NCBI GenBank assembly: GCA_019359125.1
Contig: JAHHHY010000006.1
Span: 62,001-126,000, forward strand
Direction of reading: 5' to 3'
Length of the DNA: 64,000 nucleotides
Source: Pleurocapsa minor GSE-CHR-MK 17-07R
GTDB taxonomy: Bacteria; Chloroflexota; Anaerolineae; Aggregatilineales; Phototrophicaceae
Positions 36,216-48,147 of this stretch are shown here, in pieces. Below the pieces are notes generated by a model. The model was not told the DNA's origin. It worked only from the letters and a program-made list of their open reading frames with translations, and made no database searches. Numbering within the stretch: the stretch's first letter is position 1; each line of letters begins with the position of its first letter. Position numbers and translations under genes: made by a program.

Positions 36216-37468
36216 GACAAAAACTCCCCGGGGTCGGTGATGCGGCCGGTGATCGCGCTGGCCGCCACCACATACGGGTTGGCCAGGTAGATACTCGCGT
36301 CAGACGTGCCCATGCGGCCCTTGAAATTGCGGTTCGCGCTGCTGATGGTGGCCTCGCCCGGCGCGGGCACGCCCATGTGGTTGCCCATGCACGGGCCGCA
36401 TCCCGGCGTGCCGATGGTCGCGCCCGCTTCCAGCAAAATACTCAGTGTGCCGTCTGCGGCGGCGCGTTTGAGCGCCTCGGCACTGGACGGGATGACCAGC
36501 GTGCGGATGCTGACACGGCGGCCTTTCAGCACGCGTGCCGCCGCGACCAGGTCCTCGTATTTGCCGTTGGTGCAGGTGCCCAGAAAGGCCTGCTGCACGA
36601 CCTCGCCATACAGGTCACCCGCCGGGGCGACATTATCCGGCTGATGCGGGCGCGCCACCACAGGCCGCAGGCTCCCAATATCGATATGAATATCTTCGGC
36701 ATATTCAGCGTCGGCATCGGGATACAGCGGCGTGTAATTGCGCTGGCGTTTCGCTTCCAGATAGTCGAACACGCGCTGGTTGGGCGGCATATACGCGCTC
36801 ATCGCGCCAAACTCGGCCATCATGTTGGGCAGCACGCTGCGCTCGTCGATGCTCAGCGCGTCCAGCGCGTCGCCCGCGAATTCCACGCTGCGGTATTCGC
36901 CGCCGTCGATGCCGTGCGCGCCAATCAGGTGCAGGCTGACATCCTTGGTGGTCACGCCGGGGGAGAGCGCCCCGGTCAGCGTGACGCGCATCGACTCCGG
37001 CACGCGCAGCCATAATTCGCCCACCGCCCACAGCGCGGCCATCTCGGTGCGGCCGACGCCCATGCCGAACGCGCCCATCCAGCCGAAATGCGGCGTGTGG
37101 CTGTCTGACCCGAAGATGACCTCGCCGGGCAGCACCAGCGCTTCCTCGCTGATGACCTGGTGGCAGATGCCGCGCCCCACCTCGAAGAAATGGCGGATGC
37201 CCTGTTCAGCCACCCAGGCGCGAATCTCGGCATGGTTGAGCGCGTGGTCGGTCGTGGGCGCAGGCACGGCATGGTCGAGCGTGATGCACACGCGCTCAGG
37301 ATGCAGGATGCGTTGTGCGCCGGTCTGCAAAAACGTCTTGCGGATGGCGGCGGTGTTGTCGTGGCTGAAGATCACGTCTGGCCGCACATCCAGCAGGTCG
37401 CCCGCCCGCGCTGATGCCACGCCTGCCGCCCGCGCCAGCGCCTTTTCGGCAAAGGTGTATCCGGTCAT
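36212..37468 (-). CDS. lysT: Homoaconitase large subunit
   Basis: Fe-S dehydratase subunit of 418 residues. The 4Fe-4S cysteines are in [16 protein letters not shown] and [13 protein letters not shown]. The early motif [13 protein letters not shown] and the active-site segment [20 protein letters not shown] are typical of the LeuC/LysT group. With lysU it should isomerise homocitrate to homoisocitrate in the aminoadipate route to lysine. The position within the LysW cluster supports LysT over LeuC. There are 51 bases between it and the split ATP-grasp gene upstream, so it may be read from the same transcript. Confidence 0.87.
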
Positions 37469-37519: not shown

Positions 37520-38302
37520 TTATTCCGCACGAATCCATTCGATCACATAGTCACGGTATGCCTGCCAGATTTCCGGGAAGCGTGACACGTTGGGAATATG
37601 ATTCACTTCCAGCAGGTAGCGCGTGCCATCGTCGCCAACCATATAATCGTTCGCGATGACTTCAAGCCCAAACGCTGCTTTGACCTGCTTTGTATCGGCC
37701 ACCAATTCAGGATCAGGGGGCATAAAGTCGGCAGTATCATGATGAATCGACTTCAGCCAGTCATCGCCTTCCAGTTTGATTTGCCAGACCTGGTCACCAA
37801 TAATGACCACACGCACGGCACTGCCGCTGATGAACGGTTCAACGACCGCCGCTTCCTGCCCTGTCTATAATCCGGTAAAGCGTTCCTTGTTTTCGCCGCA
37901 GTGCCAGTTTCCCCACTTCGCTACCGACTCATGTGCCGCTTCATACGGTGCTCTGCCAGAAGAAAAGTCGCGCGGAGCGCCGAAGCGCGTATGCTCCAGC
38001 GCGCGCAGCAACCCCGGCAGTTTCAGGCGGAGATCGAGCATCGCCCGCGGGTTTGGCAGGCAAGGACCGCCCCAGAAATTCAGTCCGGTGATGAAATCGA
38101 GATCATTATCATAAATGGCGTGATAGACCAGTTTTTTCACGGGTACATAACGTGGGCGGCTTTCTGTCTCGACCCACAACTTACCGGATTGCACCATGAT
38201 CGCTGGCAGGGTGACGCGCGCAAAAACGGGCACATCGAGCGCCCGGCTCAGTTCCGCGCCTTCTTCCTCATCCAGCCCGACGATACAGATATATTCTCTC
38301 AT
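37520..38302 (-). pseudogene. ATP-grasp (RimK-like) gene interrupted by an in-frame TAG
   Basis: Two open frames in the same phase, 37865-38302 (145 codons) and 37520-37864, are separated by one TAG at 37865-37867. Read through, they give one protein of about 259 residues. The N-terminal part has RYVPVKKLVYHAIYDNDLDF. The C-terminal part has the ATP-grasp pattern VVEPFISGSAVRVVIIGDQV, DDWLKSIHH and the metal-binding YLLEVNHIPNV. There is no frameshift. TAG is used as a normal stop by other genes here, for example at 14517-14519. So this is either a recent nonsense mutation, a sequence error or a readthrough site. The substrate is unknown. Confidence 0.8.
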
Positions 38303-38399: not shown

Positions 38400-39540
38400 T
38401 CATTGACCAGAAACAGCATGTTCCTCGGCGGCCTGATGCAGCAGCGCATCGACCTGCGCCAGCGTCAGCGTGGCCTGGTCTGCCTGCGCCTTGACGATCT
38501 GCGTCACGTGCTTGACGATGCTGTCGGGCAGCGTCAGCCCCAGCTTCATGGCGCGGTCGCGAATCGTGTTCCAGCCGGTCAGGCGGTGGCCGATGGCGAT
38601 TTCACGGCTCAGGCCAAAGTCCGCCGGATTCAGCACCTCATACGTGTTCGGGTCGGCCAGCACTGCTTTGGCATGGATGCCCGCCTTGTGGATGAACGCG
38701 CTCGCGCCGGTGATGTAGTTGTTGAAGGGGATGCCGATATGGCAGAACTCGGCGATCATTGCGTCCAGGATGGGCAGCATCGGCAGGTTGTATTTCGCCA
38801 CATAGGCGCGGTCGAGCGTGTACAGCCGCGCCACCAGCCCGCCCAGCGGGGTGATGCCGTTGCGTTCGCCGATGCCCAGGATGGTGGTGTCGATGTGGGT
38901 GGCCCCGGCCTCCAGCGCCGCGCACGCATTGGCAATCGCGCAGCCGCTGTCATTGTGCCCGTGAAACTCGATGTCCAGACCGGTCAGGCGGACGAGCTGA
39001 TGCACCAGCGCGTACACCTGGTTGGGCGTGGCAAAGCCGACCGTATCGGCCACGCCCAGCCGGTTGACATAGCCGGTGTCGGCCACCGCCAGATACACGC
39101 GCAGCAGGTCGCTTTCGCGCGACCGAAAGCTGTCTTCGGTGCTGAAGCGCAGGATGATGTCGGGCGATTGTTCGCGCACGAACGTGATCACGTCCAGCGC
39201 GGTGTCGATCACCTGGGCGATATTCTTGCCGTGGCTGTGCTGCATCAGCTGGGGCGATGTGCCGATGACGATGTCGATGCCGTGCACGCCGGTATCCAGC
39301 GCACGCAGCACGTCCTCGCGGGCACAGCGCACATGCGTCAGGATGCGCGGGCGCAGCCCCATGCCCACGACCGAGCGGATATCGGCCTCGCTCTGCGGGC
39401 TGGCCAGCGGCGATGTCATCTCGATCATCTCCGCGCCAAATTCGTCCAGCAGCGCGGCGATTTCCATCTTCTGTTCGGTATTGAAGGTCGCAGTGCTGAA
39501 CTGCTCGCCTTCCCTCAGCGTGCTCTCGATGACCGAAAAA

Positions 39541-39554
<14 letters not shown>
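38400..39554 (-). CDS. lysS: Homocitrate synthase
   Basis: DRE-TIM metallolyase of 384 residues, catalysing the first step of the aminoadipate pathway: 2-oxoglutarate plus acetyl-CoA to homocitrate. Conserved segments are [15 protein letters not shown], the metal-binding [33 protein letters not shown] and the C-terminal [19 protein letters not shown]. The RxGEQF motif and His pattern fit homocitrate synthase rather than isopropylmalate synthase, and its LysW-cluster context agrees. It overlaps lysJ by 14 bases at its 5' end. No leucine-type regulatory domain (LeuA_dimer) is present, since the protein ends after the helical subdomain. Confidence 0.92.
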
Positions 39555-40725
<1,171 letters not shown>

Positions 40726-40757: not shown

Positions 40758-41561
40758 TCAGGCGCTGATATGCGTGCCAGCGCCGGTCAGCGCGGCGTCC
40801 AGCGGCGCATCGATGCGCGCGTCGCTCAGGATGACGCGGGGCACGCCGCCTTCCAGCGCCCGCTCGGCGGCCATCACTTTTTTCTTCATGCGCCCGGCAG
40901 CGTAGCCCGCGTACTGGGGCATCTGCGCCGCGCTGAAGCCCGTAATCAGCGAATCCGCGTCGGCCACGTCGCGCAGCAGACCGGGCACATTGCTGAGGAT
41001 GACGAGTGCATCGGCGCGCAGCGTGACCGCGATCAGCGCGGCGGCCAGGTCGCCGTCCACATTCAGGCGTTCGCCCGCCGTCCCCAGCGCGATTGGCGAG
41101 ACGACCGGCGTCAGGCCGGCATCGAGCAGGGCGGTCAGCGCCGCGCCGTCCGCCGACTGGAGCGCGCCGGAAAAGTCGTCACGGATAATCACGCTGCGCC
41201 CGTCGACCAGCCCGCGGATGGCGGTTTTGCGTTCGCCGCGCAGCACGCTCACGCCAGACAGCCCGGCAGCGCGCCCGCCCGCATGCGCCAGCGCCGCGGT
41301 CACACGGGTATTCACGCCGCCCGCCGCCGCGCAGAACAGCTCCAGCATGGCCGCGTCGGTGTAGCGCGAAGTGTGTCCACCGGGCGAGCTGATCGTGCGC
41401 ACGGGCACATTGGCCTGCGCCGCCAGCGTATTGGCCGCGTCGGATGCGCCGTGCACGATGACCCAGCGCTCACCGGTTGCTGCCCGCCGCGCGATGTTCT
41501 GTACGGCCGCCGTCGGGTCGATGCCCGCGCCGCCGCCAATTTTCAGGACAAAAACTGCCAT
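40758..41561 (-). CDS. lysZ: [LysW]-aminoadipate kinase
   Basis: Amino-acid kinase fold protein of 267 residues, related to ArgB. Visible motifs: KIGGGAGI near the N-terminus for phosphate binding, VIVHGASDAAN, NVDGDLAAALIA and LILSNV-type LVILSNVPGLL, and AGRMKKKVMAAERAL. It phosphorylates the side-chain carboxyl of aminoadipate bound to LysW. It lies between lysJ (32 bases downstream) and lysY; a block of about 350 bases of tandem repeat separates it from lysY. Confidence 0.9.
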   Translation of the reverse strand: MAVFVLKIGGGAGIDPTAAVQNIARRAATGERWVIVHGASDAANTLAAQANVPVRTISSPGGHTSRYTDAAMLELFCAAAGGVNTRVTAALAHAGGRAAGLSGVSVLRGERKTAIRGLVDGRSVIIRDDFSGALQSADGAALTALLDAGLTPVVSPIALGTAGERLNVDGDLAAALIAVTLRADALVILSNVPGLLRDVADADSLITGFSAAQMPQYAGYAAGRMKKKVMAAERALEGGVPRVILSDARIDAPLDAALTGAGTHISA

Positions 41562-41634: not shown

Positions 41635-41917
41635 AACCTCTCCCTGCGTCGCTGCGCTCCGCCGTCCCTCTCCACTGCGTAGCGAGGGACAGTAGGCGTA
41701 TGCTGGTGGTCGAAAATACGCCCTGAGTCATCCCCTCGTCCACGTTGTGGAGAGGGGAGTGAGGGGAGAGGTGGTTCAACCTCTCCCTGCGTCGCTGCGC
41801 TCCGCCGTCCCTCTCCACTGCGTAGCGAGGGACAAAAGGCGTACGCTGCTGGCCGAAAATACGCCCTGAGTCATCCCCTCTTCCACATCGTGGAGACGGG
41901 ACCGAGGGGAGAGGTTA
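41635..41917. repeat. 143-bp tandem duplication inside the lys cluster
   Basis: The 353-base gap between lysY and lysZ holds two near-identical 143-base units starting at 41635 and 41778. Each contains CCCTGCGTCGCTGCGCTCCG, a palindromic stretch CACTGCGTAGCGAGGGAC, and GAAAATACGCCCTGAGTCAT. A single related copy lies at 48704-48766. The far end of the second unit runs into the last codons of lysY. A small palindrome (GGCAAGGCATGCCTTGCC) lies at about 41582. No gene is seen. Confidence 0.85.
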
Positions 41918-42946
41918 CGGATACACCCCGCCGAAGCCGAGCGCGGTCGTCTCGTCGAAGCCGCACATCAGGTTCATGCACTGCACGGCGCTGCCAGCCG
42001 CGCCTTTGCCCAGGTTATCGATGGCGCACAGCAGTGCCGCACGGCCATTTTCCGGGTCCAGCTCCCAGCCGACATCGGCGTAATTGGTGCCGGCCAGCAG
42101 GCGCGGCTCCGGATGCCGATGGAAGCCGGTCTTGTCATGCACCACGCGCACGAACGGCTGGTCGGCGCCCCAGGCACTGCGATAGGCCGCCCACAGGTCT
42201 TTTTCCGCCACGCCGGGCAGGTCCACATATACGGCGGCCGCTGCGCCGCGCACCAGCTCCACGCTGGTTACGGCCATGCGGATGTTCACGCCGCCCAGCG
42301 ACTGGCGCACCTCGGCTTCATGGCGGTGGCCGGTCATGGCAAACGGACGCACCACGCCAGCCCGCGCCGGGTGATGGCTGCTGTCTGACGGCGAACGGCC
42401 GGCCTCGCTGCTGCCCACTTTGACATCGGCCACCAGCGGCGCGGACGCGGGAATCAGTTGTGCGCGATGCGCCGCATATAACGCCAGCGTGACAGCGGTC
42501 GCGTTGCAGCCCACGCCGCTGGCATACTGCGCCCCGCGCAGCGCGTCGCGGTTCAGCTCTGGCAGGCCGTAGACGAAGCGTTCGAGCCAGTCGGGCGCGG
42601 CATGCGGCTCGCCGTACGTCTGCTGATACACGGCCGGGTCGCGCAGGCGAAAATCCGCGCTCAGGTCGATGATGCGTTCGGCCAGCCCGGCATAACGCGC
42701 AATCTGTTTCTGCGCCTCGCCGTGGGGCAGCGCCAGGAACAGCACATCGACCGGCTCCAGCGCGGCCTGTCCGATGAACTTAAGCGTGGTGCGCCCGCGC
42801 AGATGCGGATGCACCTGATAGGCGAATTTCCCGGCGAAGCTCTCGCTGGTGATGGCCGCTATCTCCACGCCCGGATGATCGAGCAGGAAACGCAGCAGGT
42901 CGCCGCCCGTGTAGCCGGATGCCCCGACGATGCCGACGCGGATCAT
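41915..42946 (-). CDS. lysY: [LysW]-aminoadipyl phosphate reductase
   Basis: ArgC-type semialdehyde dehydrogenase of 343 residues. The NADP-binding N-terminus is MIRVGIVGASGYTGGDLLR, and the nucleophile is Cys147 in YASGVGCNATAVTLALYA. Later segments IDLSADFRLRD and NLGKGAAGSAVQCMN are hallmarks of the ArgC/LysY family. It reduces LysW-aminoadipyl phosphate to the semialdehyde. The frame is open upstream to 43147, but that part overlaps lysX; the ATG at 42946 overlaps the lysX stop by four bases and is clearly the true start. Confidence 0.92.
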   Translation of the reverse strand: MIRVGIVGASGYTGGDLLRFLLDHPGVEIAAITSESFAGKFAYQVHPHLRGRTTLKFIGQAALEPVDVLFLALPHGEAQKQIARYAGLAERIIDLSADFRLRDPAVYQQTYGEPHAAPDWLERFVYGLPELNRDALRGAQYASGVGCNATAVTLALYAAHRAQLIPASAPLVADVKVGSSEAGRSPSDSSHHPARAGVVRPFAMTGHRHEAEVRQSLGGVNIRMAVTSVELVRGAAAAVYVDLPGVAEKDLWAAYRSAWGADQPFVRVVHDKTGFHRHPEPRLLAGTNYADVGWELDPENGRAALLCAIDNLGKGAAGSAVQCMNLMCGFDETTALGFGGVYP

Positions 42947-43833
42947 TGAGCCGACTCCACGCGTGCCTGGGCCGTCTGGATGGCGTAGTTCACCACGCGC
43001 TCGGCGATATTCACGCCGGTCGGCGCGCTCGAATTGCGGAATTCCATCGTGTGATTGATCTCGTTGATGCTCAGCCCGCGTGACGGGTCCTCGAACACGT
43101 CCAGCGCCAGCACGCCGCCGCCCACGGCACGCGCCGCCCGCAGGCACAGGTCGTTCAGTTCAGGCGTGACCGGGCAGTTGGAGGCGGTGCCGCCGCGCGC
43201 GGTATTAGTGATCCAGTGCGGCGACGTGCGGTAGATGGCGCAGATGGTCTCGTCGCCCACCACAAAGGCGCGGATGTCGCGTCCGGGCTTGTCGATGTAT
43301 TCCTGCGCGTAGAACGTGTGGTGCGTGTAGCTGCCCAGCGTCTGTCGGTGCTCGATGATCGATTCGGCCGCATTACGGTCATCCACCCGCGCCAGCAGTC
43401 GGCCCCACGAGCCAGTGACCGGCTTCAGCACGGCCGGATAGGTCAGGTCTTCCAGTGCAGCCAGCGTCGAGGCTTCGTCGAAGGCGACGCGGGCGTTTGG
43501 CTGGGCGATGCCCGCCCGCGCCAGCGCCAGCGTGGTCAGCAGCTTGTCGGCGCACACAGCGGCGGTGGCATAGCTGTTGATCGTCTCGATGCCCCACGCG
43601 TTCAGGATGGCCTGCAAGTACATCCCGCGTGAGGTGCTGACGCAGCGTTCCAGCACCACGGCATAGTCAGCCCACGGTCGGCCCGACGGCGCGATCTGTT
43701 CGCCGCCCGCCGTCAGGTCGATATTGGCGTCGCGGTCGAGGATGATGTCCGGCTCGATGCCGCGTGCACGAAAGGCCTCGACCAGCAGCTTTTCTTCCGG
43801 ACGGATATGCGTGACGAGGATGGCGATCTGCAC
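42943..43833 (-). CDS. lysX: [LysW]-aminoadipate ligase
   Basis: ATP-grasp ligase of 296 residues that attaches aminoadipate to the C-terminal glutamate of LysW. ATP-grasp elements: VLKPVTGSWGRLLARV, YAQEYIDKPGRDIRAFVVGD, and the C-terminal metal-binding INEINHTMEFRNS, a LysX/ArgX hallmark. The TARGGTASNCP loop is also typical. It begins two bases after lysW, so the carrier and its ligase are cotranslated. The LysX/ArgX split (aminoadipate versus glutamate) is not certain from sequence, but homocitrate synthase in the cluster favours LysX. Confidence 0.92.
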   Translation of the reverse strand: MQIAILVTHIRPEEKLLVEAFRARGIEPDIILDRDANIDLTAGGEQIAPSGRPWADYAVVLERCVSTSRGMYLQAILNAWGIETINSYATAAVCADKLLTTLALARAGIAQPNARVAFDEASTLAALEDLTYPAVLKPVTGSWGRLLARVDDRNAAESIIEHRQTLGSYTHHTFYAQEYIDKPGRDIRAFVVGDETICAIYRTSPHWITNTARGGTASNCPVTPELNDLCLRAARAVGGGVLALDVFEDPSRGLSINEINHTMEFRNSSAPTGVNIAERVVNYAIQTAQARVESAQ

Positions 43834-43835
43834 GA

Positions 43836-44012
43836 TTATTCGCCCCAGTCTTCCTGGAGTTCCGGCGCGTAGTCCAGCTCGACCGGGTTCAGGCTGAGCA
43901 CTTCCAGCTCGGTGCCGCAGTCCGGGCAGGCGACCAGCTCGTTGAGCAGGGTGTTGGCGGCGAGGGCCATTTCAGCGGCGCATTCGGGGCAGGTGGCGGT
44001 GTTGTGGGTCAT
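43836..44012 (-). CDS. lysW: Amino-group carrier protein LysW
   Basis: A 58-residue acidic carrier protein. It has a zinc ribbon with Cys8, Cys11, Cys29 and Cys32 (CPEC and CPDC) and ends in the family hallmark EDWGE. The terminal glutamate is the site where aminoadipate is attached for lysine synthesis. The frame is open upstream to 44039, but the homologous protein starts at the ATG at 44012, preceded by GAGAGA. First structural gene of the cluster. It lies downstream of two leader-peptide/terminator units. Confidence 0.95.
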   Translation of the reverse strand: MTHNTATCPECAAEMALAANTLLNELVACPDCGTELEVLSLNPVELDYAPELQEDWGE

Positions 44013-44090
44013 GATGGTTCTCTCGTGCTTTCTGGCCACAGGGCCTGTTCTCGATGTGATTTACGGATACTGCTGAAAAACGACTGTCTT

Positions 44091-44134
44091 GAAAAGAAAA
44101 GCCGCCGTCCGGTGTGTGACCTGGACGGCGGCTT
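44091..44134 (-). terminator. Intrinsic terminator 2 before lysW (candidate attenuator)
   Basis: On the minus strand a 12-bp GC-rich stem (AAGCCGCCGTCC at 44134-44123 with GGACGGCGGCTT at 44110-44099) is followed by TTTTCTTTTC. It points toward lysW and lies 79 bases before its start, directly after leader peptide 2. A terminator in this place must be conditional if lysW is transcribed from upstream. Confidence 0.85.
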
Positions 44135-44163
44135 GTTTACGACGCGGGAACGCGCAAACGCAG

Positions 44164-44223
44164 CTATCCAGATCTTTCGACCGGCTTCTTGCTCTGCTTG
44201 CTCTGCTTCAGGCTGACGTTCAT
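44164..44223 (-). CDS. Leader peptide 2, Lys-rich (candidate attenuator peptide)
   Basis: A 19-codon frame, MNVSLKQSKQSKKPVERSG, with four Lys codons in eight positions (AAG at each) in the repeated 9-base unit AAGCAGAGC. GAGAGAG lies five to eleven bases before the ATG. An upstream in-frame ATG at 44256-44254 would add MQFLRQVERDT. It ends 29 bases before terminator 2. The position before the lysine biosynthesis genes and the Lys content suggest a sensor of charged lysyl-tRNA. Too short for any homology statement. Confidence 0.5.
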   Translation of the reverse strand: MNVSLKQSKQSKKPVERSG

Positions 44224-44269
44224 CGTGTCTCTCTCAACTTGTCTTAAAAACTGCATCGCGTCCCGGAAC

Positions 44270-44297
44270 AAAAAAAACCTGCCGCTCGGGCAGGTTT
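44270..44297 (-). terminator. Intrinsic terminator 1 before lysW (candidate attenuator)
   Basis: A perfect 9-bp stem (AAACCTGCC at 44297-44289 with GGCAGGTTT at 44283-44275), a five-base loop CGAGC and eight consecutive Ts. It lies 49 bases after the stop of leader peptide 1. CTCGGG at 44344-44339 can pair with CCCGAG at 44290-44285, which would open the terminator stem. Confidence 0.88.
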
Positions 44298-44346
44298 CTG
44301 ATTTCAGGTCGCGTGTGCGTCGCTGGAAACGAAAAAGTCCCGAGGG

Positions 44347-44397
44347 TTAGCTCCGGCTGCGCTTCTTCGACTTCAGGGCAATACGCACAAACTGCAT
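44347..44397 (-). CDS. Leader peptide 1, Lys/Arg-rich (candidate attenuator peptide)
   Basis: A 16-codon frame, MQFVRIALKSKKRSRS, preceded by AAGGTG at a good distance. The Lys codons AAG TCG AAG AAG lie in a stretch (CGAAGAAG, 44369-44362) that can pair with CTTTTTCG at 44337-44330. That pairing would cross, and so exclude, the CTCGGG:CCCGAG pairing that opens terminator 1. A ribosome stalled at these Lys codons would therefore favour readthrough. It shares its first codons (ATG CAG TTT) with the longer form of leader 2, as if the unit had been duplicated. Confidence 0.55.
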   Translation of the reverse strand: MQFVRIALKSKKRSRS

Positions 44398-44431
44398 GGC
44401 TGGCAACACCTTATTTACACATAACGACAGA

Positions 44432-44461
44432 AGAATAGCGCACCACGGGGAATGTGCGCAA
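44432..44461 (-). promoter_or_regulatory. Candidate promoter of the lysine cluster
   Basis: On the minus strand TTGCGC (44461-44456) and TATTCT (44437-44432) are 18 bases apart. Transcription would start near 44425, giving a leader RNA that includes both leader peptides and both terminators before lysW. Confidence 0.4.
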
Positions 44462-44539
44462 GGGGTGATATATGGGACATTGTGCATGAACATTCCTGTG
44501 CAGCCTGCCCAGCACGGGATAAAGATGCATGAGGTTGGG

Positions 44540-44815
44540 TCTCGTAGGGGCTTGGCATGCCTTGCCCCATGGGCACCAAGTTAAGATGATTTTTCTCCTA
44601 ACTGCCGGGCGGACACGCAGGTCCGCCCGGCTACATTCCTCGCGGACAAACAGTTGCAACCGCGAGTTTGTTTTCCTTCAAATCCGAGCGACTCCGAGTA
44701 GGGGCGGACCTATGTGTCCGCCCTGGAGGACCAAAATCCGACTGAATCCTCGGCGAGAATTTCTAAATTGGTTCCTATGGGGCAAGTCATGCCTTGCCCC
44801 TACGGCGAAGATTCT
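44540..44815. repeat. Cluster of REP-like palindromes
   Basis: Upstream of the lysine leader region and downstream of patB lie four palindromes: GGGGCTTGGCATGCCTTGCCCC (about 44547), GCCGGGCGGAC/GTCCGCCCGGC (44604-44635), GGGGCGGAC/GTCCGCCC (about 44700-44726) and GGGGCAAGTCATGCCTTGCCCC (about 44778). They are of the same family as at 31561 and 19692. No gene is seen between 44462 and 44828. Confidence 0.75.
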
Positions 44816-44828
44816 CGGCTAACCCGCC

Positions 44829-46004
44829 TTACCCCAGCGCCTGAACCGCTGCACGCATGCGCTCCAGGGCATCCATCAGCGTCTCGCGCGAGCAGCCAAA
44901 GTTGATACGCACGAAGCCCTTGCCCGCCTCGCCAAAGGCTGCGCCGTCGTTGAAGCCAACCTTGCCCGTATCGATGAAATACTGCGCGGGGCTGGTGCCT
45001 TCGGGCAGCGGCAGCGAGCGGCAGTCCACCCACGCCAGATAGGTTGCGTCGGGAATGGTGACCGGCAGGCCGGGCATATTCTCGTGCAGATAATCGACCA
45101 GCACGTCGCGGTTGGCCTGCAAATAGGGCATGACCTCCTCCAGATAATGGCCGCATTCGGTGTAGGCCGACAGCGCGCCGACCATGCCGAACGCGCTGGT
45201 GTGCTGGCCGGTCATCCAGGCGCGGGTCTGGAAGGCTGTGAACAGCGCCTCGTCGGTGATGACCGCGTAGCCGAGGCCCAGCCCGGGGATATTGAACGCC
45301 TTGCTGGGCGCATTCAGCGTGATGGTGCGCGCGGCGATTTCCGGCGAGAGCGAGGCCAGCGCGTTGTGTGTGCGCCCGTCAAAATGCAGGTCGCTGTGGA
45401 TTTCGTCGCTCACCACCAGCAGGTTGTGGCGCAGCGCGATCTCGGCCACACGCTCCAGCTCGGCGCGGGTATACGACCGGCCGACCGGGTTGTGCGGGTT
45501 GCAGAACAGCCACATGCGCGTATCCGGCGTGATGGCCGCCTCGATCGCATCGAAGTCCATCTCGTAGCGCAGTACGCCATCGGTCACGCTGGAGACCAGC
45601 GGCACATCCACCAGCCGCTGCCCCTGGTGGGCGACCGAGCTGAGGAACGGCGGATAGATCGGCGAATTGAGCAGGATGCCACTGCCCTGCGCGCCAGCGA
45701 TGAAGGCGGCGATATTCAGCCCGCTGACCAGATTGGGCAGCAGCAGCACGCGCTCGGCCGTCGCAGCAGACACGCCATAACGGTTGCGCATGCGGGCAGC
45801 GATGACCTCGCGCAGGTCTTTGCTGTCCATCGCATAGCCGAACATGCCGTGTTCGGTCAGGCGGTGGAGCGCAGCGATGACCGGGCGCGGCGAATAAAAA
45901 TCGGTGTCGGCCACCCACAGCGGCAGCACGTCCGGCGCAAAGAAATTCCATTTCACGCCATCAAACTCGCGGTGGGCGAGCGGCGAAGGAGGCAAAAATG
46001 TCAT
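44829..46004 (-). CDS. PatB/MalY-type C-S lyase (cystathionine beta-lyase-like)
   Basis: Fold-type I PLP enzyme of 391 residues. The opening FDGVKWNFFAPDVLPLWVADTDF is the PatB/MalY signature, followed by NPHNPVGRSYTRAEL, VVSDEIHSDLHFDGR and the PLP lysine in LNAPSKAFNIPGLG. It probably cleaves cystathionine or cysteine conjugates to pyruvate, ammonia and a thiol. The frame is open to 46070, but AGGGAA before the ATG at 46004 supports the start. It is 20 bases downstream of the PP2C-like gene on the same strand, so cotranscription is possible. Confidence 0.9.
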   Translation of the reverse strand: MTFLPPSPLAHREFDGVKWNFFAPDVLPLWVADTDFYSPRPVIAALHRLTEHGMFGYAMDSKDLREVIAARMRNRYGVSAATAERVLLLPNLVSGLNIAAFIAGAQGSGILLNSPIYPPFLSSVAHQGQRLVDVPLVSSVTDGVLRYEMDFDAIEAAITPDTRMWLFCNPHNPVGRSYTRAELERVAEIALRHNLLVVSDEIHSDLHFDGRTHNALASLSPEIAARTITLNAPSKAFNIPGLGLGYAVITDEALFTAFQTRAWMTGQHTSAFGMVGALSAYTECGHYLEEVMPYLQANRDVLVDYLHENMPGLPVTIPDATYLAWVDCRSLPLPEGTSPAQYFIDTGKVGFNDGAAFGEAGKGFVRINFGCSRETLMDALERMRAAVQALG

Positions 46005-46023
46005 GTGAGCGTGTTCCCTTGTG

Positions 46024-48147
46024 TTATTGGCCCCGCTGAAGCGCATAAATCGTGCTGCCGGATGCCGCATAGATCAGGTCATTGTTGGAATCGACCGCTA
46101 CGTCGGCCAGCTCGGCAAACTGCCGGTCTTCCGACGGGCGATAGCTGGCCGCCCGCGTGCCCGCGTGCGTGGTCTGATAGATGGTGAACAGGTCACGCGT
46201 GACGATGTACATCATCAGGTCGGTCGGGTTGGTATTCATGTACATGCGGTTGACGTTCGCCAGGCTTTGCCCTTCCGGGAAATTGGAGAAGGCGAAGCCG
46301 ACGCGCTGGGCGCTGGTGTATTTCAGCAGCGCGCCGTCAGACAGCAGCACGTACAGCGAGCCGGGGGTATCGATGGCGAAGCCGACTGCGCTGCGGATAT
46401 CCGGGCGGCCTTCGCCGACGAAGTATTCCACCGGCGCATTCGGGAACGATCCGCCGCTGGCGTCGTAGCGCCACACCTGGTTGGCGCCGGGGTCAAGCAC
46501 GTACAGGCGGCCCTGCCAGAACTGCATCTGCGTGGGGCGCACCCATGTGCTGGTGTTCAGCCGCTGGGCCGAGCACTGTTGGGTGAAGCGGGGCGGGCAG
46601 TTAATCAGCACGCCCTGGTCATCCAGCGCGGTAATCACGCTGCCCTGCTGCAGGCCGGCGTTGTTCTCGGCCCAGGTGATGTCGATGATATCGCCCACGG
46701 TGAACTGGTTGACGATGCCGCCGCGGCGCATGGCCGCGATCGGCTGGCGCGTGCCCGGCGAGACAGACAGGCCGTCCGGGTTGAGCGTGATGCGATAGAC
46801 GATATCGTTGCCATTGTCCAGCGCATACAGGTCCTGGCCTTGCAGCACGAGGCGCGTGAGCACGGCGCTGGGCAAGGTCTCCACCACGGTGGTGGGCCGC
46901 CGGTCGATTCCCACCAGGGCGTCGGTCACCGTCTGCGCTTCATTCGCCAGCGCGATCATCTGCGGGTCATTCGGGTTCAGGCTGTCGCAGCGGGCCACCA
47001 CGGCGTTGACCGCGCTCCATGCCGCCAGCGTGCCGCGCACGTCGGACGAATCGATGCTGCGCGCCAGGCTGGCCGCCTGATACGCCTGCGTCACGCACAG
47101 GTCAAACTCGCTCTGGCCGGTGCCGCTCAGCCAGAAACCGACCACCACCAGCACAACCACCACCGGGATGAGCAGCGCCAGCGCGGCCATCAGCGGCGTG
47201 CTGCTGTCCGACTTTTTGGCCGGGTCTTTCTCTGGCAGCACCAGGTCGACCGCGTCGTTCAGGTTATCGATGGCGGCGGCGGTGCCCAGCGCGGCGGACC
47301 CAACTGCACGGCGCAGCCCGTCCCCACGCGTGTCTGACCGGCGTGGCGCAGGTTCCTCGCGGCTGCTGGTTGCAGGGCGGTCTTCCTCCACCACGACTTC
47401 CGGCGCAGGCGTAATCACCTCGCCACGCGTGCTCTCCACCACCGGCACCGGTAGCGGCGACGGTTCCTCTGGCGGCACAAATTCAATCGCGGTGGCCGTC
47501 AGCGTGCCTGCGGCGGCCTCTTTCAGCGCCAGCAGCACATCGCCAATATCGTCCCGCGTCATCGCTGCGCGCACGCTGTCGTAATTCAGGTCGGCCAGCA
47601 TGACATCGGCCAGCAGCAGGCGCGCGCCTTCCTTGACCTGATACATCGCCATCTTGACATCGGGCGACATGCGCACGCCCAGCGGCATGCCAAACACCTG
47701 TTCGTCGTTGCTGAATTCGCTGGGGAACGGCTGCACCTCGTCGTCCGAGCGGAACAGGGCCACGCCAGAGCCGATGCGCGCCAGATACAGGTCCGAGCCT
47801 TTCATCACGGCACACAGCAGCGTCGCCTCGTAATGCGCGCCATGAAGCTGATTGTGCTCGTACAGGTTTTCGTTCAGATGGGCCAGTGCTGCGCGGATGC
47901 CGGCCGTCACGCTGCCCGAGCTGTTGAAGTAGCGCTCGGCGCATAACTGCGCCATCTGCTCGTAAAACAGGGCGGGGGCGGCGGTGTCTCCAGACGGCAG
48001 CACAAGCACAAAAAAGGTGTCTGTCTCACGCCCGCGCGCGGCCTTCTTCGGCGCGACTTCCACCAGCGCGCCGGGCGGCATCATGCTGATCGAGCGGCCG
48101 TTGACCACATACAGGTGTCCGACGAGTGCTTCAAATTCCAGTGCCAT
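46024..48147 (-). CDS. PP2C-like pseudophosphatase with membrane helix and beta-propeller
   Basis: A 707-residue protein with three parts. Residues 1-220 resemble a PPM/PP2C phosphatase, for example SDLYLARIGSGVALFRSDDE and GARLLLADVMLADLN, but the metal-binding Asp motifs (DGMGGH, DG) are absent. A Pro/Glu-rich linker and one membrane helix (about 312-337, MAALALLIPVVVVLVVVGFW) follow. The extracytoplasmic 370 residues look like an NHL/WD-type propeller with repeated LYALDNGNDIVYRI-like and LYVLDPGANQVWRY-like blades. The start is placed at 48147 because TACAAT just before an upstream ATG at 48183 looks like its -10 box. The function is unknown. Confidence 0.7.
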   Translation of the reverse strand: MALEFEALVGHLYVVNGRSISMMPPGALVEVAPKKAARGRETDTFFVLVLPSGDTAAPALFYEQMAQLCAERYFNSSGSVTAGIRAALAHLNENLYEHNQLHGAHYEATLLCAVMKGSDLYLARIGSGVALFRSDDEVQPFPSEFSNDEQVFGMPLGVRMSPDVKMAMYQVKEGARLLLADVMLADLNYDSVRAAMTRDDIGDVLLALKEAAAGTLTATAIEFVPPEEPSPLPVPVVESTRGEVITPAPEVVVEEDRPATSSREEPAPRRSDTRGDGLRRAVGSAALGTAAAIDNLNDAVDLVLPEKDPAKKSDSSTPLMAALALLIPVVVVLVVVGFWLSGTGQSEFDLCVTQAYQAASLARSIDSSDVRGTLAAWSAVNAVVARCDSLNPNDPQMIALANEAQTVTDALVGIDRRPTTVVETLPSAVLTRLVLQGQDLYALDNGNDIVYRITLNPDGLSVSPGTRQPIAAMRRGGIVNQFTVGDIIDITWAENNAGLQQGSVITALDDQGVLINCPPRFTQQCSAQRLNTSTWVRPTQMQFWQGRLYVLDPGANQVWRYDASGGSFPNAPVEYFVGEGRPDIRSAVGFAIDTPGSLYVLLSDGALLKYTSAQRVGFAFSNFPEGQSLANVNRMYMNTNPTDLMMYIVTRDLFTIYQTTHAGTRAASYRPSEDRQFAELADVAVDSNNDLIYAASGSTIYALQRGQ

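Follow-up and report, generated by a model that had tools for sequence, protein, structure and literature searches.

We begin with the leader that precedes lysW on the minus strand of the window (the whole stretch of DNA that was analysed, 64,000 nucleotides), which we read as a tandem, two-stage attenuator: two ribosome-mediated switches in series, both responding to the same signal, that would sense the charging of lysyl-tRNA and control a LysW-type lysine operon. We put the probability of this reading at roughly 0.88. The sequence contributes the frames, the terminators, the covarying antiterminators, the conservation and the gene context, and ribosome masks are modelled on top of these; translation, stalling, termination and the AND behaviour of the units are what we infer. 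An earlier note, made from the window's letters, had proposed tandem ribosome-mediated lysine attenuation here, and conservation, reading frame, covariation and gene context now support that proposal strongly.

In the proposed mechanism, a ribosome with plentiful Lys-tRNA would reach the stop codon of the leader frame and cover a strand B, which in unit 1 closely follows the stop codon and in unit 2 lies within the last sense codons; the terminator would then form and transcription would end. With Lys-tRNA in short supply, the ribosome would wait on the Lys codons, leaving B free to pair with a strand D before the 3' arm of the terminator is made, and with B and D paired the RNA polymerase would read on. 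Since transcription arrives at lysW only after passing both units, the output of two same-signal switches in series should be close to an AND.

The features of the window are collected in Table 1. Reading the sequence confirms the two Lys-codon frames, each with its terminator, that had been described on the minus strand before lysW, and the coordinates given for the four pairing segments of unit 1 (CGAAGAAG, CTCGGG, CTTTTTCG and CCCGAG) are exact. The 9-bp terminator with eight Ts and the 12-bp terminator are both borne out as well: folded alone, terminator 1 has an energy of -15.1 kcal/mol (z -4.3) and terminator 2 of -27.7 kcal/mol (z -8.3), and none of 200 shuffles is as good in either case. 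A simple terminator scan of 43900-44700 gives one terminator-like site against 1.2 expected in shuffles, so the scan by itself is no evidence for terminators. What had been called a plausible promoter is not upheld, as the consensus scan gives none and the TTGCGC/TATTCT pair, picked by eye, is a weak match. Two further minus-strand observations concern the surroundings of the leader. A GC-rich inverted repeat (CCGGGCGGAC...GTCCGCCCGG, 44605-44630) lies downstream of the patB-like gene and has no T-run, and a 145-aa frame (37868-38302) between the homocitrate synthase and the homoaconitase-like gene has no NCBIfam match.

Table 1. Features of the lysine cluster and of the leader before lysW (positions in the window)
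Feature	Positions	Strand	Basis
lysW, first gene past the leader (ATG 44012)	43836-44012	minus	NCBIfam TIGR01206 over cut-off
lysX	42943-43833	minus	NCBIfam TIGR02144 over cut-off
argC-like reductase, lysY by place	41915-42952	minus	NCBIfam TIGR01850 over cut-off
lysZ	40758-41561	minus	NCBIfam NF010659 over cut-off
argD/lysJ-like aminotransferase	39541-40725	minus	best match NF042418 (LysJ) below cut-off; TIGR00707 over cut-off
homocitrate synthase (hcs)	38400-39554	minus	NCBIfam TIGR02146 over cut-off
homoaconitase large-subunit-like gene, lysT by place	36218-37462	minus	TIGR01343 and NF001614 over cut-off; 58% identical to the L213 counterpart
patB-like gene upstream, same strand as leader	44829-46070	minus	
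promoter-like pair TTGCGC - 18 nt - TATTCT, weak match	44432-44461	minus	by eye; absent from consensus scan
leader peptide 1 frame, MQFVRIALKSKKRSRS	ATG 44397 to TAA 44347	minus	read from sequence; K clusters kept in frame in relatives
leader 1 Lys codons	44373-44371, 44367-44365, 44364-44362	minus	
segment A1, CGAAGAAG, Lys codons, partner of C1	44362-44369	minus	A:C duplex test
segment B1, CTCGGG, putative unit-1 antiterminator strand, just after stop codon	44339-44344	minus	B:D duplex, covariation
segment C1, CTTTTTCG, partner of Lys codons	44330-44337	minus	A:C duplex test; pairing also in minimum-energy fold
segment D1, CCCGAG, terminator 1 5' arm and loop	44285-44290	minus	B:D duplex, covariation
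intrinsic terminator 1, 9-bp core AAACCTGCC/GGCAGGTTT, eight T at 44277-44270	44270-44299	minus	scan, folding, alignment
purine-rich GAGAGAGA ahead of leader 2	44235-44228	minus	
leader peptide 2 frame, MNVSLKQSKQSKKPVERSG	ATG 44223 to TAG 44164	minus	relatives read SKKKQSKKPxxRSG and similar
segment B2, GATCTGGA, within the three R-S-G codons that end leader 2, putative antiterminator strand	44167-44174	minus	B:D duplex, covariation
segment D2, TCCAGGTC, terminator 2 5' arm and loop	44118-44125	minus	B:D duplex, covariation
intrinsic terminator 2, 12-bp outer stem 44134-44099, tail TTTTCTTTT	44092-44134	minus	folding, alignment

We turn to the relatives of the window. A LysX scan yields 80 named loci, and the titles of nearly all of them give Chloroflexi or Anaerolineae. 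lysW is located by motif in 74 of them; L024, L036 and L040 were read by eye, all with units, and L072, L074 and L075 were left out of the lysW upstream reading. Counting the window itself and six additional distinct regions from family genomes, there are 81 distinct lysW upstream regions. Eight of the 50 loci L082-L131 are not located by the lysW motif and are not among the 81; by eye, each of the eight has at least one Lys-rich frame. Relatives were where the earlier note had proposed to look for conserved Lys codons, frames and terminators, and they are found there: a short frame with a Lys cluster stands upstream of lysW in 75 of the 81 regions, and a terminator at or over the score cut follows the Lys-rich frame in 74 (L070 left out). 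The regions with no Lys-rich frame are L062, L073, L076, L080, L081 and L126, with a weaker frame of two Lys in L062. Examples of unit-1 peptides are MLNFGLIKKAKKTQPDL (L007) and MSAIGSAIELKKVKKTNTH (L050), and the unit-2 peptide of L005 ends in SKKKQSKKPDTRSG. The Lys residues are kept while those between them vary (KKAKK, KKVKK, KKSKK and KKDKK; KKKQSKK and KQKKQDKK). Arg directly follows the unit-1 K cluster in the window, L003, L009, L011, L017 and L019, and most relatives have another residue there; as this Arg is not conserved, we reject the earlier suggestion that Arg codons link lysine to arginine supply.

Are these frames real, or do they arise by chance? K clusters were chosen by DNA pattern alone, namely two AAR pairs 1 or 2 codons apart, then a T-run. 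An ATG within 90 nt is open in the Lys frame for 82 of the 83 clusters so chosen and in the other two frames for 5/83 and 5/83; a stop codon comes within 60 nt in the Lys frame for all 83, versus 32 and 39 in the others. This bias (82/83 against 5/83), with Lys kept among relatives, points to a frame rich in codons for the end product, as a leader-peptide attenuator should have. Ahead of the K cluster, a third-position excess is absent (100/124/98 at positions 1/2/3, in 58 non-independent pairs of unit 1), so only the Lys codons look selected as protein; protein-level selection in the N-terminal part of the leader is rejected, as there is no codon-position bias. The same data bear on the idea that the region is an uncharacterised metabolite- or protein-binding leader RNA in which the Lys codons are incidental. 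The region does fold better than shuffles, with z -2.0 for unit 1 and -3.5 for unit 2, but such an RNA would leave the bias of the Lys frame unexpected and no Rfam family matches at gathering score, and we hold it to be very improbable. The lysine riboswitch (L-box) and the T-box were also considered; neither has a match at gathering score in the window, and by that test neither is present. A permissive Rfam search of 43900-44600 gives four weak sRNA/miRNA matches, the best being an sRNA family with E 0.032 at half its gathering score.

A unit finder, which takes an ATG frame of 10-40 aa with at least four K in six residues and a terminator within 160 nt, was run on the 80 loci (about 0.62 Mb of DNA, or 1,244,946 bases when both strands are counted). 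It returns 74 units upstream of lysW and four elsewhere. These four lie upstream of lysX in L024, L036 and L040, where the lysW motif failed, and in the 80 loci no finder unit lies away from lysW/lysX. The two units of the window fall below the Lys-density cut of the finder, with no more than three Lys in any six residues, and taken by itself the window is thus less strong as evidence than the relatives are.

The pairing between B and D was examined with a duplex test, in which the sequence that follows the final Lys codon (B) is given its best pairing with the terminator 5' arm and loop (D); L070 was left out, and for unit 1 of L010 the frame used is an overlapping one. For 74 unit-1s the mean duplex energy within the own locus is -15.45 kcal/mol versus -11.85 (sd 0.27) when permuted, and for 30 unit-2s it is -18.8 versus -14.73 kcal/mol (sd 0.51); in both cases 0/2000 permutations are as good. 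Among the matched changes are GTCCGGG/CCCGGAC (L005), GTATGGG/CCCATAC (L057), TCAGGC/GCCTGA (L033) and GTGGGC/GCCCAC (L031). The earlier note had seen no clear antiterminator for unit 2. One is found, GATCTGGA (44174-44167) with TCCAGGTC (44125-44118), which form eight pairs, one of them G-U, and have counterparts in the relatives. Of the two crossing pairings claimed for unit 1, both are supported, with 0/2000 permutations as good for each: the own locus is better than 2000 of 2000 permutations also when the Lys codons are paired with the stretch after B. Their roles are to be read differently, as the decisive pairing would be CTCGGG:CCCGAG, and the Lys-codon:CTTTTTCG pairing, which crosses it as in a pseudoknot, is taken as a competing or auxiliary fold. 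The Lys-codon hairpin of unit 2 is weakly supported (17/2000 permutations as good).

Covariation in related genomes, the check that had been proposed for these pairings, is found for the antiterminators and the terminators of both units. In the unit-1 antiterminator alignment 92.7% of the cells are paired, with a score of 0.396 versus 0.180 shuffled and at most 59.0% paired when slid; in that of unit 2 the values are 87.2%, 0.207 versus 0.129, and at most 53.4%. Terminator 1 has 93.9% of its cells paired (45 aligned rows) and terminator 2 has 94.7% (28 aligned rows). Two covariation measures lie within shuffles, namely pairs changed on both sides (61/500 shuffles as high for the unit-1 antiterminator, 246/500 for that of unit 2) and further pair types (77/500 and 218/500), so the support comes from the percentage paired, the cells changed on both sides and the covariation score. 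The unit-1 alignment holds 45 of the 69 listed segments, and the omitted ones, which are partly near-copies, are L010, L012, L013, L015, L020, L021, L027, L029, L037, L045, L047, L049, L051, L053, L054, L059, L064-L066, L069, L107, L109, L117 and L118; the row of the window is one column out of register in B. The distant L068, L071, L077, L078 and L079 are excluded from this alignment and from the ribosome-mask folding of unit 1, and L071 and L078 from both for unit 2. On the sequence, then, an intrinsic terminator lies between leader and first gene, together with an antiterminator that would exclude it, as in a leader-peptide attenuator.

We next consider the position of the ribosome. For 69 unit-1s and 28 unit-2s the RNA was folded with the nucleotides under the ribosome kept unpaired. 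At the stage that precedes the 3' arm, a ribosome on the last Lys codon is predicted to leave the antiterminator more than half formed in 64/69 unit-1s and 26/28 unit-2s, and a ribosome on the stop codon in 4/69 and 0/28; with no ribosome the model gives 27/69 and 22/28. After the 3' arm has been added, equilibrium folding with a stalled ribosome gives a more than half formed terminator in 54/69 unit-1s and 27/28 unit-2s, and the terminator is favoured in 58/69 and 27/28 with no ribosome and in 68/69 and 28/28 with the ribosome on the stop codon. Masking of the Lys codons had been proposed earlier as a check on the leader, and its outcome is divided: the antiterminator does form before the 3' arm, but the terminator mostly wins after it. 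Since the terminator wins at equilibrium even when the ribosome is stalled, the switch must, on this model, be kinetic, a behaviour that fold programs do not prove. For unit 1 of the window at the late stage, the antiterminator is favoured with 43 nt before the ATG and the terminator with 20 nt, so that the outcome depends on the transcript start; with the longer 5' end, the model gives a full switch at equilibrium. In unit 2 of the window the terminator wins at the late stage in every ribosome state. Unit 1 of L006, L008, L013 and L016 has an early stop well upstream of B, where a modelled stop-codon ribosome leaves B unmasked, and it may work differently.

Does the unit precede lysine genes elsewhere? 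From 45 lysW-linked rows, that of the window among them, a covariance model of unit 1 was made (R1) and searched against 98 family genomes with stricter filters, at which weak matches are lost. It has matches in 82 of the 98, each within 1 kb upstream of lysX and on the same strand. Leaving aside the weak or truncated LysX matches of G021, G022, G033, G043 and G044, there are 87 genomes with a good LysX, of which G007, G018, G031, G047 and G048 have no R1 match near lysX; by eye, G018 and G031 have weaker Lys-rich frames, and G007 has a partial match. Ten of 95 R1 matches are not upstream of lysX. Eight of those, in 7/98 genomes, stand before a homocitrate-synthase frame that has a lysT-like frame after it. 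A lysU-like frame comes next in 6/7 of these split homocitrate-synthase operons, and in L212 the contig ends; the gene names come from reading of the frames, except lysT of L213, which was searched. A second Lys leader with hairpin and T-run is present at five hcs loci (L212-L216), and one leader at the near-copies L217 and L218. As the matches at hcs operons were absent from the building set of R1, they are independent evidence tying the unit to lysine synthesis. R1 matches in G058 (4190243) and G059 (709145), with E 0.0039 and 0.0052, are ends of long coding frames and are rejected for that reason. The window's genome has hcs and lysT inside the lysW cluster and no second R1 match at E 0.1 or better. 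Partial R2 matches occur elsewhere in that genome, for example G000:C10:264411-264456 (model positions 61-106).

These placements weigh on two other explanations. As a same-strand gene, the patB-like one, ends upstream, the hairpins might be plain terminators of that gene accompanied by chance short frames; but the units stand before lysW in most relatives examined and also before separate hcs operons, and the finder gave none away from lysW/lysX, so that conservation contradicts the idea and we give it next to no credence. The leaders might instead be arrest peptides, or sensors of a general slowdown of translation, that respond to something other than lysyl-tRNA charging. Runs of basic residues could by themselves slow ribosomes, and the KK-x-KK motif is tight and the PxxRSG ending of unit 2 conserved. 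That ending is explained at the RNA level, since strand B2 lies within the last three sense codons; moreover, the Lys residues persist while the intervening ones vary, and the R1 matches in the 98 family genomes precede lysine genes, bar the two weak coding matches. We regard arrest peptides as quite unlikely and retain lysyl-tRNA charging as the signal that the leaders would sense.

Beyond the family, a survey of the class covered 40 lysW regions from about 38 families, with lysW located in 38 and two regions shorter than 700 nt. A Lys-rich short frame followed by a T-run is seen in 11/38 and no such frame in 27/38; the trait is therefore not shared by the whole class. Two Lys-rich frames are present in L136, L152 and L160, from other families of the class, with a short second tail in L152; the leader peptides of these three are unlike those of the window's family.

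A LysX tree of 81 rows has 34 with two units, 42 with one and 5 with none (the tandem label was set from the peptides for L012, L019, L020, L024 and L040, and the single label for L036 and L062). The tandem label changes 10 times on the tree against a shuffled mean of 26.2, and the starred branches force at least three changes. Tandem rows are spread over many branches and one 30-row clade has 29 single rows, which we read, direction of change included, as two units that are probably old and were lost repeatedly. L009 and L079, in records titled Bacteroidetes and Halieaceae, have lysine clusters among the Anaerolineae rows of the tree and are perhaps mis-binned MAG contigs. The tree also gives some ground for supposing that only one unit of the window is regulatory and the other a decaying remnant: single rows include L003, among those nearest the window, the label is forced to change as noted, and Lys codons are fewer in the window's units than in those of most relatives. 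Yet both units of the window keep frame, terminator and B:D pairing, the terminators and antiterminators of both covary among relatives, and paired units recur before a second operon. We judge a remnant to be improbable and keep the reading of two working units in series.

The lysine cluster of Thermus thermophilus is reportedly (about 2005) under transcriptional control by a lysine-responsive leader peptide. By that account it shares with our system the kind of pathway and such a leader peptide; ours differs in belonging to Chloroflexota, another phylum, and in having two units in series with two antiterminators. The classical trp/his/leu attenuators, with Actinobacteria examples in PMC1262725, likewise combine a short frame of cognate codons, an intrinsic terminator and an alternative antiterminator; here, in contrast, the codons are Lys, the lineage is Chloroflexota, the units are two in series and the antiterminator strand of unit 2 would lie inside the leader coding sequence. 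The same paper reports no conserved RNA structures upstream of Actinobacteria lysine operons (PMC1262725). The leader of Salmonella mgtCBR also contains two successive short frames that both affect transcription (PMC3641672). There, one signal is ATP and the other proline, and the stem-loops are unlike intrinsic terminators, whereas both units of the window carry Lys codons and intrinsic terminators and no pair of different signals is seen. ErmB induction reportedly needs both of two leader peptides for one signal, erythromycin (PMC8274638); it differs in that an antibiotic acts there on a resistance gene by way of translational attenuation, and not amino-acid starvation by way of transcription termination. 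Duplicated switches in series before one operon are also known as tandem T-boxes, as tandem riboswitches and, in some rimP leaders, as a doubled terminator (PMC9413887, PMC3641672 and PMC2965389); these have no leader peptide, and the window matches no Rfam family.

According to the authors of a 2010 survey (PMC2965389), who add a Firmicutes case of their own, leader-peptide systems had until then been known to them from Proteobacteria and Actinobacteria only. Among the matches listed in a search of the open-licence literature, we find neither Chloroflexota Lys-leader attenuators nor same-signal transcription attenuators in series, and no description of the Thermus leader, which does not imply their absence from print. 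The Thermus case would be another exception to the survey statement. As far as this limited search goes, the mechanism would be the known one of a leader-peptide attenuator, and what appears new is the pair of same-signal units in series and their place in Chloroflexota.

We lean, with less assurance than for the leader itself, towards a wider reading: an old lysine regulon of a Chloroflexota family, with hints of it in other parts of the class, made of ribosome attenuators in series that share one signal, use differently built antiterminators, stand before two separate operons and act more sharply and with less leak than one would. The benefit of two same-signal units would presumably be this lower leak and a steeper response. 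R1 provides a sequence model that marks lysine operons in genomes of the family, and a lysine attenuator that is kept across a large Chloroflexota family and often doubled would offer a natural test of why cells chain like attenuators, in terms of sensitivity and leak.
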